A stretch of 63,861 nucleotides of DNA from Acidobacteriota bacterium (lineage in GTDB: Bacteria; Acidobacteriota; Terriglobia; Terriglobales; Acidobacteriaceae), in contig JAGWNX010000009.1 of NCBI GenBank assembly GCA_028872955.1, forward strand, positions 1-63,861, in the 5' to 3' direction. A program made the position numbers and the translations under genes. Numbering within the stretch: position 1 is the stretch's first letter; every line of letters starts with the position of its first letter. Positions 25,053-49,907 of this stretch are shown piece after piece. The notes beneath the pieces were generated by a model. It was given only the letters and a program-made list of their open reading frames with translations, did no database searches and had not been told where the DNA came from.

Positions 25053-25099
25053 GCGTATGGCTCCTCCGCTCCCCCCTCGGGAGCGTGGTTGCTGTACGT

Positions 25100-25300
25100 T
25101 GCGAAACCGGTCTCCTGACTTACGCGATTCATGCCGTGGTTGAGTGGCATCTCCCTTCCCGCGCCATGCAGCAGCAGTGGGAGAGGCCGACGGCATTCAC
25201 AAGTCTCGCCGCAGCGAGGTTGTGCGCGAACACAGTTGCGGGGCAGTGGCGGAGTCTAACCGCGCTTCCCGAACATTCCGTAACGGGACAAGGGTGAGAG
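25100..25300 (-). ncRNA. Cobalamin (AdoCbl) riboswitch
   Basis: Read on the minus strand the leader contains CCGCCACTGCCCCGCAACTG (within 25233-25253), a GGGAAGG segment, and the B12 box GTAAGTCAGGAGACC near its 3' end (about 25108-25123), followed 50 nt later by the receptor start. These are the conserved cobalamin riboswitch blocks in the right order. Outer limits are approximate. When AdoCbl binds, the 3' kissing structure normally blocks the ribosome site. A copy of AGGTTGTG-GCGAACA (one base varying) lies both inside (about 25217-25232) and upstream (about 25327-25342). Confidence 0.9.
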
Positions 25301-30119: not shown

Positions 30120-30144
30120 GGTGGATTCAAGGAGCAAGTGCAAC
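30120..30144. repeat. IS30 left terminal inverted repeat
   Basis: Pairs with 31229-31253; two adjacent mismatches near the middle. Confidence 0.88.
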
Positions 30145-31203
30145 GGGTGTGATTATCTGTGACCAGTGTTGCACGAAGTCGAAGGCTCCATCTGGGAGGA
30201 AGAGTTCTGCGGGAGCTTTCCATCCGAGAGTTTTCCTTGGCCGGGTGTTGAGTCTCCATGCGATGTCGTGGAGCTGATCCTGGGAGAACACGGACAGGTC
30301 GGTTCCTTTGGGCAGGTACTGGCGGAGCAGTCCGTTGGTGTTTTCGCTGATGCCGCGCTCCCAGGGAGCATGGGGATGGGCGAAGTAGACATCGACTCCG
30401 GTGTTGCGGGTGAGGGTCTTGTGGTGCCTCATCTCCGAGCCCTGGTCGTAGGTCATGGAGCGGCGCAACTGGCTGTCGAAACGGTTGAGGATGCCGGGGA
30501 AGGCCTCGGCCGTGATGTCGGCCCTGCTGCTGTTCAGCTTGACCAGGGCGACGAACAGGGTGGTGCGTTCGACCAGCGTGCCCACCTGCGACAGGTTGCC
30601 CTTGCCGATGATCAGGTCGCCCTCCCAGTGTCCCGGGATCAGGCGCATCTGCACTTCCACCGGTCTCTGGTCGATCAGGACCATGTCCGGAATCGGCGGC
30701 TTGACGGGCCCGTGGCGGCCACGCTGCGGCCTGCGGGCACGATGCCGGCGGCGCATCAGCAACAGCAGACTGGAGCGCAGCTCGCCGCGCGGCATGGCGT
30801 AGAACGAGGTGTAGATGGTCTCATACGAGAGCCGGACGGGTTCAGCCATACGAGCCAGTGTGCGCGCGATCTGCGCCGGACTCAAGCCCTGGCGAAGATG
30901 CTCGACCACCATGACCCACAACCGGTTGCCCGGCACCAGCTTCGAGGGCACACGCGGTCTGCGGGCCAGCATACGCGCCCGCCGATCCGCCACCACGCAG
31001 CGATACCCTCCGGCGATCCGGAAACGGCCTCGTCCGGATAGCTCCGCCTCCGGCAGCCAGCCGTTGCGGCGGATCTCGCGTAGCACCGTGGAACGCGCCC
31101 GCCTGAGTCCGGCGGCGATCGCCGCCGGACTCAGGCCCAACCGCAACTGCGTCTCAATCAACGCTCGTTCCGACAACTCAAGAGGTACGTACCCTCCAGA
31201 CAT
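30127..31203 (-). CDS. IS30-family transposase
   Basis: 358 residues from the ATG at 31203, placed 8 bases after GAGAGGAG; an ATG three codons upstream (31212) touches that site directly. The N-terminal helix-turn-helix has ALIETQLRLGLSPAAIAAGL and STVLREIRRNG, with a second HTH near GLSPAQIARTLARM. The DDE core is visible: Asp in GHWEGDLIIGKG, Asp in MTYDQGSEM and Glu in RGISENTNGLLRQYLPKG, the last a hallmark of IS30. All catalytic residues are present and there is no frameshift, so it may be active. The stop codon lies inside the left inverted repeat. Confidence 0.95.
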   Translation of the reverse strand: MSGGYVPLELSERALIETQLRLGLSPAAIAAGLRRARSTVLREIRRNGWLPEAELSGRGRFRIAGGYRCVVADRRARMLARRPRVPSKLVPGNRLWVMVVEHLRQGLSPAQIARTLARMAEPVRLSYETIYTSFYAMPRGELRSSLLLLMRRRHRARRPQRGRHGPVKPPIPDMVLIDQRPVEVQMRLIPGHWEGDLIIGKGNLSQVGTLVERTTLFVALVKLNSSRADITAEAFPGILNRFDSQLRRSMTYDQGSEMRHHKTLTRNTGVDVYFAHPHAPWERGISENTNGLLRQYLPKGTDLSVFSQDQLHDIAWRLNTRPRKTLGWKAPAELFLPDGAFDFVQHWSQIITPVALAP

Positions 31204-31228
31204 AAGCAACATCTCCTCTCTTGGAAAT

Positions 31229-31253
31229 GTTGCACTTGTGCCTTGAATCCACC
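31229..31253. repeat. IS30 right terminal inverted repeat
   Basis: Inverted copy of 30120-30144, upstream of the transposase start. Confidence 0.88.
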
Positions 31254-31290
31254 GTGCCCCATCCTTCGCGTCGTTTGCGAAGGGTGGGAG
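31254..31290. repeat. Palindromic repeat, copy 2 (right part, interrupted by IS30)
   Basis: GTGCCCCATCCTTCGCG, then GTCGTTT, then GCGAAGGGTGGGAG. The arms CCTTCGC and GCGAAGG pair, with CCCATCC against GGGTGGG almost complementary. Its left border was split by the IS. Confidence 0.7.
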
Positions 31291-31415
31291 GTTAGTTAAT
31301 TTGCTCGCCTCGAACACAGTGGCTGGGGTGCGACCTCCTGCTTAGGCATCGGCGACGATGGAGCACTCAGACCCTTCCAACGGAATGAGCTTCGGACCAC
31401 CCGCTCGATCTTGAC

Positions 31416-31593: not shown

Positions 31594-31670
31594 TGGTGGC
31601 CCGGGCAGGAGTCCAACCTGCGACCTTCGCGTTAGGAGTGCGCTGCTCTATGCAACTGAGCTACCGGGCC
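31594..31670 (-). tRNA. tRNA-Arg (anticodon CCT) with encoded CCA
   Basis: 77 nt. Acceptor GGCCCGG/CCGGGCC, D-stem GCTC/GAGC, T-stem GCAGG/CCTGC, variable loop AGGTC, discriminator A and an encoded CCA. The anticodon loop CTCCTAA gives anticodon CCT, reading AGG. Three oddities: the D-loop AGTTGCATA has C at position 19 where G19 is near universal, the T-loop TTGGACT has G56 where C56 is near universal (a compensatory swap of the G19:C56 tertiary pair), and the anticodon stem GCGCA/CGCGA has only three central Watson-Crick pairs with mismatches at both ends. The compensating change argues for a functional gene. Its 3' end faces the accessory pocket. Confidence 0.9.
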
Positions 31671-31734
31671 TTGTCGCTAGTGTATCGCGGCAGCAGCCCT
31701 GGGCCAGGTGGTAAACTTAAGGGTGGGGAGAGTC

Positions 31735-32967
<1,233 letters not shown>

Positions 32968-47885: not shown

Positions 47886-49907
47886 CTACATGACCGGCGG
47901 AGCCTCGATGCCTAGGTAGCCCAGCGCGCGCGTCATCTCACGCTGCGCTACGGCTGCAGTCGCCAGCAGCACCGTCTTCCGGCTGGGGTCCGTCTCGTTC
48001 AGAATGTGGTGGCGGTGGTAGAAGTTGTTGAACTGCTGCGCCAGCTGGAAGGCATACTTGGCCAGATAGGCGGGCTCGGAGGTCGCGATCGACTGCTCCA
48101 GCACCAGCGTCAGCTTGGAGACCAGCAGCCAGGTCTCCCACAGTGTGCTTCCCTGCTCGCCATCCATAGCTGCGGAGAGTGCCTCAGCGTCCAGGGCCAG
48201 CATGGCCGCCAGCGCAGCCTCTGCGGTCGTCTCCGCCTTGCGGAAGATGTTTGCCGCGCGCACAATGGCGTACTGCACGTAGGGGCCGGTCTCGCCCTCA
48301 AAGCTCAGCGCATCCTTGAAGTCAAACGCAATCACCGTGTTGCGTGTGTAGCGCAGCATGAAGTAGCGTAGCGCGCCCACCGCCACCTGGGTAGCAATGC
48401 TGCGACGTTCCTGCTGCGTCAGAGCCGGGTGCCGCTCATCCACCTGCTGTTGCGCGGCATCAATCAGGCGATCCAGCAGGTCGTCTGCTTTGACGCCGAA
48501 GCCTTTGCGCCCGCTCACCTCAATGTAGGCACGCTTCTGGTCCTCTTCGCTGATCGGATACCCGAGTTCCAGCGCACAGCGCGGCGTCAACGCCACCATC
48601 TCATAACTGAAGTGGGTATAGCGGTCTGCCTCTGCCGTAAAGCCCATGCCGCGCAGCGCAGCAATCACGTTGTTTTGCGGGTCGTTCTGGCGCGAATCGA
48701 TCACGTTATAGATCGCGTCGGCCTGGCCAAAGGTTGGTGGCTGCTCGCCCTCGCGCCCGGCCGTCGAGATCCAGCAGGTGTGGGTCGTGTACTGGTGAAA
48801 CGGCGCGTAGCCAAAGTCCTTGCCCGGCAGCAGACCAAACTTCCACAGGTGGTAGGCAATGTCCTTGCCCACGTACGTCACCGTGCCGTTAGAGCGCACG
48901 ATCACCTTGGCGTCCTCGTCTGGCCCATCGGTCGTCTCGGCCTCGTTTCCGGCACGCCGCATCACCCAGCAGCCCTTGTTCTTCCCTTCCGTCTCCTGGT
49001 ACAGCACGCCCTTCTCGATCATCAGCGCGCGCGCTGCATCCCAGAAGTGCAGCGACAGAATCTCGCTCTCGCGCGGCAAAAAGTCATACTCGATGCCGAG
49101 CCGTTGCATCGTCTCCAGATGACGCCGCAACACGGCGGTCGCCACCAGGTCGGCGATCTCGGCCGTCTCGTTGCCGCCATGCTCGAGTGCGTGCAGCGTA
49201 TCCAGCCGCACCTGCTTGCGCCGTGCCAGCTCTGCGGCATCGGTAGAGTCGGTGTACCACTGGCTGACGCGCGCGTACAGATCCCAGCAGTAGTAGTCAA
49301 AGCGCGTGCCCTCAGCGGCCAGGCGCTGTTGCAGCGCTCGCACGGTATCCAGATCAAACTGCTCCAGCTCGCGCAGCCCCACCACCACGTCTGCCACCTG
49401 CACGCCCGTGTTGTCGATGTAGTTCTGCACCCCCACCTGATAGCCGGACTTGTAGGAATCCGGCCGCAACAGGCGCTGGAAGGTGTCGCCCAGAATGGCG
49501 TTACGCAGATGGCCGATGTGGGCTGCCTTGTTGGGGTTGATGCTGGTGTGTTCAATCAGCCGGAAGCCCGGCCCGCCGATGTCGGCGTGGCGGTCCTGCG
49601 CAATCTGCTGCGTCGCCGCGACGCGGTTCAGCCGCACGTTCAGATACCCGGCACCGGCAACCTCCACCGCAGCCACGCCGGGCAGTGAGGCCAGGTCTGC
49701 CGAGAGCTCCGCCGCCAGTTCCTGCGCAATGGCGCGCGGAGCCTTACGCAGCCGCTTGGCCAGCTCAAAGGCGACCGGCAACGCCAGCTCGCCAAGCGCG
49801 ATGCTGGGTGGCTGCTCCACCACCAGCTGACTAAGGGTGACTTCGTACCTGGCGAGCAGAATGCTCTGGATGCGTGCCTGAAGGGATTGCTGAACGATGC
49901 GATACAT
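47886..49907 (-). CDS. argS: Arginyl-tRNA synthetase
   Basis: 673 residues, longer than the E. coli enzyme (577). Class I synthetase: N-terminal Arg-S-type additional domain (residues 1-110), HIGH motif in NPNKAAHIGHLRNAILGD at about 130, the tRNA/arginine-site block YIDNTGVQVADVVVG, and a DALRP-type anticodon-binding C-terminal domain containing RAANIFRKA and QFNNFYHRHHILNE. The KMSKS site is the variant SGRKGFGVKADDLLD, as in several bacterial ArgS. It charges tRNA-Arg, including the unusual tRNA-Arg(CCT) at 31594, whose acceptor/discriminator and anticodon are normal. It is convergent with pepA. Confidence 0.96.
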   Translation of the reverse strand: MYRIVQQSLQARIQSILLARYEVTLSQLVVEQPPSIALGELALPVAFELAKRLRKAPRAIAQELAAELSADLASLPGVAAVEVAGAGYLNVRLNRVAATQQIAQDRHADIGGPGFRLIEHTSINPNKAAHIGHLRNAILGDTFQRLLRPDSYKSGYQVGVQNYIDNTGVQVADVVVGLRELEQFDLDTVRALQQRLAAEGTRFDYYCWDLYARVSQWYTDSTDAAELARRKQVRLDTLHALEHGGNETAEIADLVATAVLRRHLETMQRLGIEYDFLPRESEILSLHFWDAARALMIEKGVLYQETEGKNKGCWVMRRAGNEAETTDGPDEDAKVIVRSNGTVTYVGKDIAYHLWKFGLLPGKDFGYAPFHQYTTHTCWISTAGREGEQPPTFGQADAIYNVIDSRQNDPQNNVIAALRGMGFTAEADRYTHFSYEMVALTPRCALELGYPISEEDQKRAYIEVSGRKGFGVKADDLLDRLIDAAQQQVDERHPALTQQERRSIATQVAVGALRYFMLRYTRNTVIAFDFKDALSFEGETGPYVQYAIVRAANIFRKAETTAEAALAAMLALDAEALSAAMDGEQGSTLWETWLLVSKLTLVLEQSIATSEPAYLAKYAFQLAQQFNNFYHRHHILNETDPSRKTVLLATAAVAQREMTRALGYLGIEAPPVM

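Follow-up and report, generated by a model that had tools for sequence, protein, structure and literature searches.

The base pair between positions 19 and 56, which joins the D-loop to the T-loop, is usually regarded as fixed, and T-boxes are among the partners that clamp the tRNA elbow where it lies. The ribosome touches this pair at its three tRNA sites, RNase P also clamps the elbow, and what the ribosome and others recognise there, in the account given in part of PMC4810234, is a flat Watson-Crick face. In the window (the whole stretch of 63,861 nucleotides that we analysed), a soil bacterium of the Acidobacteriaceae carries a tRNA-Arg(CCU) gene that has C19 and G56 where G19 and C56 are usual. 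This raises the questions of whether the gene is an error, a relic or a working tRNA and, as such swaps turned out to recur, the sharp one of why arginine.

The tRNA-Arg(CCU) gene

The gene and its relevant positions are the following.
31594..31670, minus strand: tRNA-Arg(CCU) gene of 77 nt with encoded CCA (ARAGORN, RF00005, copies in relatives)
31652, minus strand: C19 in the D-loop, where the usual base is G19 (sequence reading and alignment)
31651, minus strand: intact A20, the chief identity base of bacterial tRNA-Arg (sequence reading; role from PMC9976931)
31634..31636, minus strand: anticodon CCU, in which C35 and U36 are arginine determinants (ARAGORN; PMC9976931)
31614, minus strand: G56 in the T-loop, where the usual base is C56; complementary to C19 (sequence reading)
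31679..31684, minus strand: -10-like hexamer TACACT upstream of the gene (TAHAHT pattern)

This is the sole tRNA that ARAGORN found in the window, and its match to RF00005, which at 56.5 bits is well over the gathering score (29), places it in the tRNA family. The D-loop reads AGTTGCATA and the T-loop TTGGACT, and reading both the window and its relatives bore out the original observation that C19 and G56 occur together; the usual G19:C56 is thus absent but complementarity at 19:56 is kept, and G18, U54, U55, G57, and A58 are normal. The identity set tabulated for bacterial tRNA-Arg (A20, C35, U/G36, and A/G73; table in PMC9976931) is present as A20, C35, U36, and A73. Neither broken stems nor free drift among relatives, the marks of a pseudogene, were found, and 20/20 aligned Arg(CCU) rows have 100% pairing in their acceptor, D, and T stems. 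The gene shares with canonical bacterial tRNA-Arg(CCU) the cloverleaf, A20, C35, U36, A73 (in many of them), the CCA, the D-stem GCTC/GAGC, and U54, U55, R57, and A58; it differs from them in having C19:G56 for G19:C56 and, within the Acidobacteriaceae clade, in a 31:39 mismatch.

Two further mismatches at the ends of the anticodon stem, G27.A43 and A31.C39, had been pointed out, and both are real, but the first is not special to swapped genes: 27:43 is unpaired in 11/20 aligned Arg(CCU) genes, 5 of those 11 being canonical, whereas 31:39 is unpaired in 6/20 rows that are exactly the six swapped Acidobacteriaceae genes (in genus g24, A31.C39 is replaced by A31.G39). AGG had also been described as a rare codon, and indeed it makes up 55/1342 arginine codons (4.1%), with AGA at 31 (2.3%), in 35 window ORFs picked by length and GC pattern. 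In 31/39 loci of swapped genes the 40 nt upstream contain a TAHAHT hexamer, and 29/32 such hexamers begin 14-17 nt ahead of the swapped gene; for comparison, 10/30 other tRNAs of the window's own genome have one within 60 nt.

Conservation in the genome, the genus and the family

Among 61 genomes (the source genome and 60 relatives, 36 of these from the same genus), both C19 and G56 were present in 34/37 sampled same-genus genomes, the source included. Full-length copies comprised 29 at 100% identity (77/77, own included) and 5 at 92-99%; the three same-genus genomes without one are G014, where the gene reaches the contig end, G016, and G018. Because the changes repeat across these genomes, chance and sequencing error are excluded. 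Where the T-stem varies (G034, G021, G008, and G002), its changes compensate each other, the loops being constant, and a pseudogene is ruled out by the conservation together with the intact paired stems.

In the source genome, 38 of the 39 distinct tRNAs that we read have GG in the D-loop and C56, and only tRNA-Arg(CCU) is swapped; Arg(ACG) keeps G:C. A second, normal tRNA-Arg(CCT) gene, named beforehand as a refuting case, was looked for among these 39 tRNAs, and none was found in this genome, which is rated 100% complete. The covariation that had been foreseen at 19/56 is seen in an alignment of 20 chosen Arg(CCU) genes (nine swapped and 11 canonical), in which the corresponding column pair, 19:57 in the alignment, holds GC in 11, CG in 9, and an unpaired combination in 0.

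A wider sample of 250 genomes of the same family gave a match in 198 and none in 52, and among the 150 matches listed 23 were C19:G56 and 127 G19:C56, with no C19:C56 or G19:G56 intermediates among those 150. In a 396-genome sample of the phylum, Arg C19:G56 occurred in 35 genomes, distributed over genera g1, g22, g23, and g24 of the same family and, outside it, a single genus of family f19 and four genera of f30, the family where Pyrinomonas would belong, judging from the same place in G144 and G659. Seven Arg(CCU) genes read from other families of the order and class (L076, L078, L079, L080, L084, L088, and L090) all have GG and C56.

Recurrence in bacterial tRNA-Arg

Compensated elbow swaps recur in tRNA-Arg of unrelated bacteria and of phages, and hardly ever in the other bacterial tRNAs sampled. 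Three phylum samples were scanned (297 genomes of Acidobacteriota, 200 of Pseudomonadota, and 146 of Cyanobacteria), the scans covering only non-C56 genes with a GCTC/GAGC D-stem and a fixed distance to the T-arm, a shape that 4 Arg and 11 non-Arg genes of the source genome fit. All 63/63 tRNA-Arg genes without C56 have a Watson-Crick pair at 19:56 (29 C:G, 31 A:U, and 3 U:A). The sample centres G000, G656, and G657 were known beforehand to carry a swap, G656 (Pseudomonadota) and G657 (Cyanobacteria) having been picked for it, and pair types in these three samples, in the two family samples and in the Acidobacteriota control were assigned by eye from the matches.

Acidobacteriota contributed 36 such genes in 35/297 genomes (26 C:G, 7 A:U, 3 U:A, and 0 unpaired), Cyanobacteria one gene in each of 25/146 genomes (24 A:U, of which 23 are CCG and 1 UCU, and 1 C:G), and Pseudomonadota 2/200, both C:G and both in the Brevundimonas family (the sample centre G656 and G664). 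The control, defined as tRNAs with a base other than C in the middle of the anticodon (thereby excluding Gly, Trp, Cys, and similar C35 tRNAs) in the Acidobacteriota and Pseudomonadota samples (297 + 200), yielded a single gene in 497 genomes (1/297 and 0/200, respectively), and this one is unpaired: a Lys tRNA with G19 and A56 in an 88% complete acidobacterial genome. Of the 24 cyanobacterial genomes with A19:U56 Arg genes, 23 are 1.6-2.2 Mb in size, and A19:U56 may be a clade-wide state in them.

These results support the earlier view of a compensating change under selection and not decay, as intermediates are lacking among the matches listed for the two families sampled and all non-C56 Arg genes found in the 297 Acidobacteriota are paired. 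The narrower idea of selection for a C:G elbow holds for the pairing only: as A:U and U:A fill the same role elsewhere, it is Watson-Crick pairing and not C:G as such that is kept. By the same token, the statement that G19:C56 is almost invariant fails for tRNA-Arg of several lineages and for phage tRNAs.

A scan of contigs for C19 with G56 returned at least 120 matches, and among those listed 114 were tRNA-Arg and six other tRNAs (two Ala, and one each of Gly, Pro, Thr, and Ser-type ACT); most of the matches come from the Acidobacteriaceae and from Brevundimonas and its kin, so that the 114 are not separate events. Three of them (L122, L160, and L198) carry the ARAGORN label Pyl(cta), yet their seven-base anticodon loop gives UCU (arginine), and they are counted in the 114. 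In the Brevundimonas family, 110 of 119 genomes had a match and 9 had none, and the 111 rows comprised 14 C:G and 97 G:C, with 0 intermediates at 19:56. Aridibacter famidurans (G658, the genome of L111) combines three kinds of elbow pair in its four matched Arg tRNAs: UCG with A:U, CCG with C:G, CCU with C:G, and UCU with G:C. A change in arginyl-tRNA synthetase (ArgRS) as the cause of the swaps is unsupported, as G:C and swapped Arg tRNAs coexist within single genomes.

Phylum, isoacceptor, and pair type together give eight combinations. Several independent origins of the swap are favoured over cross-phylum transfer of one gene, because lineages differ in pair and isoacceptor and the swapped genes otherwise resemble the canonical genes of their relatives, in the acceptor and T-loop for the Acidobacteriaceae and in the anticodon arm for Brevundimonas, in whose family there are canonical genes that almost match the swapped ones in this arm. 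Origins may be fewer than eight if a swapped gene changes its anticodon or its pair.

Phage tRNAs

Viral contigs held 65 stretches with C19/G56, 100 with C19/C56, and 4 with G19/G56 (the ambiguous L273 among them), as well as at least 120 with A19:U56 and at least 120 with U19:A56. In these sets, which were selected by the scan patterns, the arginine share of the distinct genes among the matches listed was 29/47 for C:G, 49/112 for A:U, and 63/90 for U:A, compared with 75/423 for canonical viral genes that share this shape (Fisher p of 5e-10, 3e-8, and 1e-21, respectively, for the matches listed). Arginine accounted for 2/94 distinct C19/C56 genes. For the most part this last set is no class of broken elbows, given that 23 of the 94 are mis-registered genes with a true GG, 61 have G20, and 10 have neither.

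Bystander viral tRNAs lying outside the scan patterns (n=1454) included Watson-Crick swaps in 12/118 Arg and 45/1336 other genes; 57/68 of the bystanders with a base other than C56 were Watson-Crick paired, and C56 with a base other than G19 was found in 26/1454 by our register rule. Phage tRNAs in general thus tend to keep the pairing rather than G:C, and the arginine bias adds on top of this. Nothing forbids the swap outside arginine, as the 45/1336 non-Arg phage genes make clear.

Anticodons GCU and ACU read the serine AGY codons. Three class-I tRNAs with such an anticodon (L261:1981-2055 and L305:6503-6577, both viral, and L149:1770-1845 on a Verrucomicrobia contig) have C19:G56, A20, C35, and U36, and resemble arginine tRNAs redirected to codons of serine.

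A probable working tRNA and possible reasons for arginine

We consider it likely that tRNA-Arg(CCU) is a working, single-copy elongator that decodes AGG with its elbow pair changed from G:C to C:G, and we propose that the need for A20 lies behind the arginine bias. The tRNA would fold into the normal L, C19:G56 being still a flat-faced Watson-Crick pair; ArgRS would charge it through A20 and the anticodon; and the ribosome and RNase P would accept the pair by stacking, since the flat Watson-Crick face is what such partners recognise. For the E. coli ArgRS, arginine identity depends mainly on A20, which PMC9976931 calls unique among the families. After the loss of G19, other tRNAs may shift the G by one place (GNG) and still pair with C56, while tRNA-Arg would need A20 at that place for ArgRS, and only a matching change at 56 would rescue its elbow. 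A20 is retained in 34/37 distinct bacterial C:G Arg genes and in 132/136 distinct viral swapped Arg genes, and the viral C19/C56 genes without GG elsewhere have G20 in 61/71, as the proposal would have it; in viral genes with the GCTC arm, the combination of GNG and C56 occurs in 62 non-Arg genes vs 1 Arg gene, G20 and a shifted G19 being indistinguishable by sequence. The proposed dependence on A20 fits the viral data, although it explains the choice of rescue and not fully why bacterial non-Arg tRNAs stay unswapped.

Part of the pattern is explained by relaxed constraint on minor arginine tRNAs, but as an account of the whole it seems rather unlikely to us. According to it, the minor isoacceptors of arginine see little use, ArgRS ignores 19:56, and a slightly bad change of G19 can persist until 56 compensates, with neither a dependence on A20 nor a benefit specific to arginine. 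The bacterial swaps do occur in CCU, CCG, UCG, and UCU, with ACG remaining G:C in the source genome, AGG and AGA are only 4.1% and 2.3% of the arginine codons in the window ORFs, and leucine identity reportedly needs G19-C56, so some synthetases depend on the pair (as covered in part of PMC9976931); yet the minor non-Arg tRNAs that fit the control (Lys-CTT, Thr-CGT, and others) showed no paired swap in 497 genomes, and phage ACG genes swap as well, with 18 distinct A:U genes among the matches listed.

Alternatively, recognition of the D/T-loop or 3' half of arginine tRNA by some agent, such as an RNase or a mobile-element integrase using the gene as its attachment site, could have driven the change at 56, with 19 following. 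Swapped Arg tRNAs are indeed carried on viral contigs, and the four same-genus loci examined (L091:2001, L092:2001, L093:2001, and L094:2001) have exact 3' parts of tRNA-Arg(CCU) (49-51 nt) next to tyrosine integrases (PF00589), so that in this genus the tRNA gene appears to serve integrative elements as an attachment site. Such an escape appears improbable, as the 3' copies carry G56, which shows that attachment-site use outlived the swap, and many other tRNA genes that serve as attachment sites are unswapped in the bacterial samples. A search of the source genome for a second copy of the 3' end found none, the sole other match (80% over 33-77) being the Met tRNA of L086. Least credible is a tRNA that has left translation, either as a decaying attachment-site relic or for a specialised role elsewhere. 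The two end mismatches of the anticodon stem, an Rfam score that ranks 32/39 in the genome, and the ability of a UCU tRNA to read AGG by wobble could be taken in its favour, but they have to be set against 29 identical 77-mers in the genus, compensated stems, an encoded CCA, a promoter-like hexamer, and the lack of any other CCU gene among the 39 tRNAs read.

Returning to a working tRNA, we tentatively advance a broader proposal, which we regard as possible though short of likely: tRNA-Arg would be the one bacterial family in which 19:56 covaries, with ArgRS holding A20 in place, the elbow would need a Watson-Crick pair and not G:C, and tRNAs with G56 or A56 would probably do without psi55. 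TruB, which makes psi55, has the T-arm consensus 53-GUUYRANYC-61 with a pyrimidine at 56, as given in part of PMC7912444. tRNA-Arg(CCU) departs from it in having G56, and because the cited consensus needs a pyrimidine there, we predict little or no psi55 in this tRNA.

Related systems and significance

Staphylococcal cell-wall tRNA-Gly has altered D- and T-loops, uncompensated and tied to poor binding to EF-Tu. It resembles the present case as a natural tRNA with changed elbow bases, but in tRNA-Arg(CCU) pairing is restored, with G18, U54, U55, and A58 kept. In E. coli tRNA-Leu, G19-C56 contributes to identity (part of PMC9976931), which shows that the pair can matter to a synthetase; it is required there, whereas the main determinant of tRNA-Arg is the adjoining A20. 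We found no treatment of 19:56 swaps in tRNA-Arg among the titles and abstract openings listed from the open-licence literature. A single mention of 'C19-G56', in a passage of PMC10944890 on tRNA-Ala on the ribosome, may be a slip for G19-C56.

If 19:56 covaries freely in tRNA-Arg, the requirement for a Watson-Crick elbow would hold for the entire translation machinery. C:G, A:U, and U:A elbows that are natural and conserved within one isotype are ready test molecules for what the partners of tRNA need, and tRNA design could exploit the swap. Genes of this kind may be scored too low by gene finders and identity rules in which G19 and C56 are taken for granted.

Genomic surroundings

The genes of the window that concern the tRNA are the following.
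31735..32967, plus strand: ispG/gcpE, divergent neighbour, start taken from the NCBIfam match, the ORF being open from 31708 (PF04551, NF001540)
47886..49907, minus strand: argS, arginyl-tRNA synthetase with its N-terminal domain present (PF03485, PF00750, PF05746, TIGR00456)

The gap between the tRNA and ispG is 64 nt if ispG begins at 31735. ispG lies at most 0.8 kb from the swapped tRNA in L317, L319, L320, and L326, and 1.8 kb from it in L318; neither L322 nor the surroundings of six canonical CCU genes yielded it. The argS match to TIGR00456 scores 277.8 bits (cut-off 261.65), and the genome search gave no further ArgRS, both catalytic-domain matches falling within the 47886-49907 frame. 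On the strand opposite to the tRNA, an Rfam match to Plastid-ycf2 (21.8 bits) was discarded as it is below the gathering score of 65.7.

Directly downstream of tRNA-Arg(CCU) there is an IS30-family transposase gene (30127-31317, minus strand; NF033563, 261.6 bits), which separates the tRNA from a gene for a glycosyltransferase; in G022 (L326), a relative of that glycosyltransferase gene lies next to the tRNA. The window also contains a cobalamin riboswitch at 25088-25295 on the minus strand (RF00174, 51.9 bits).
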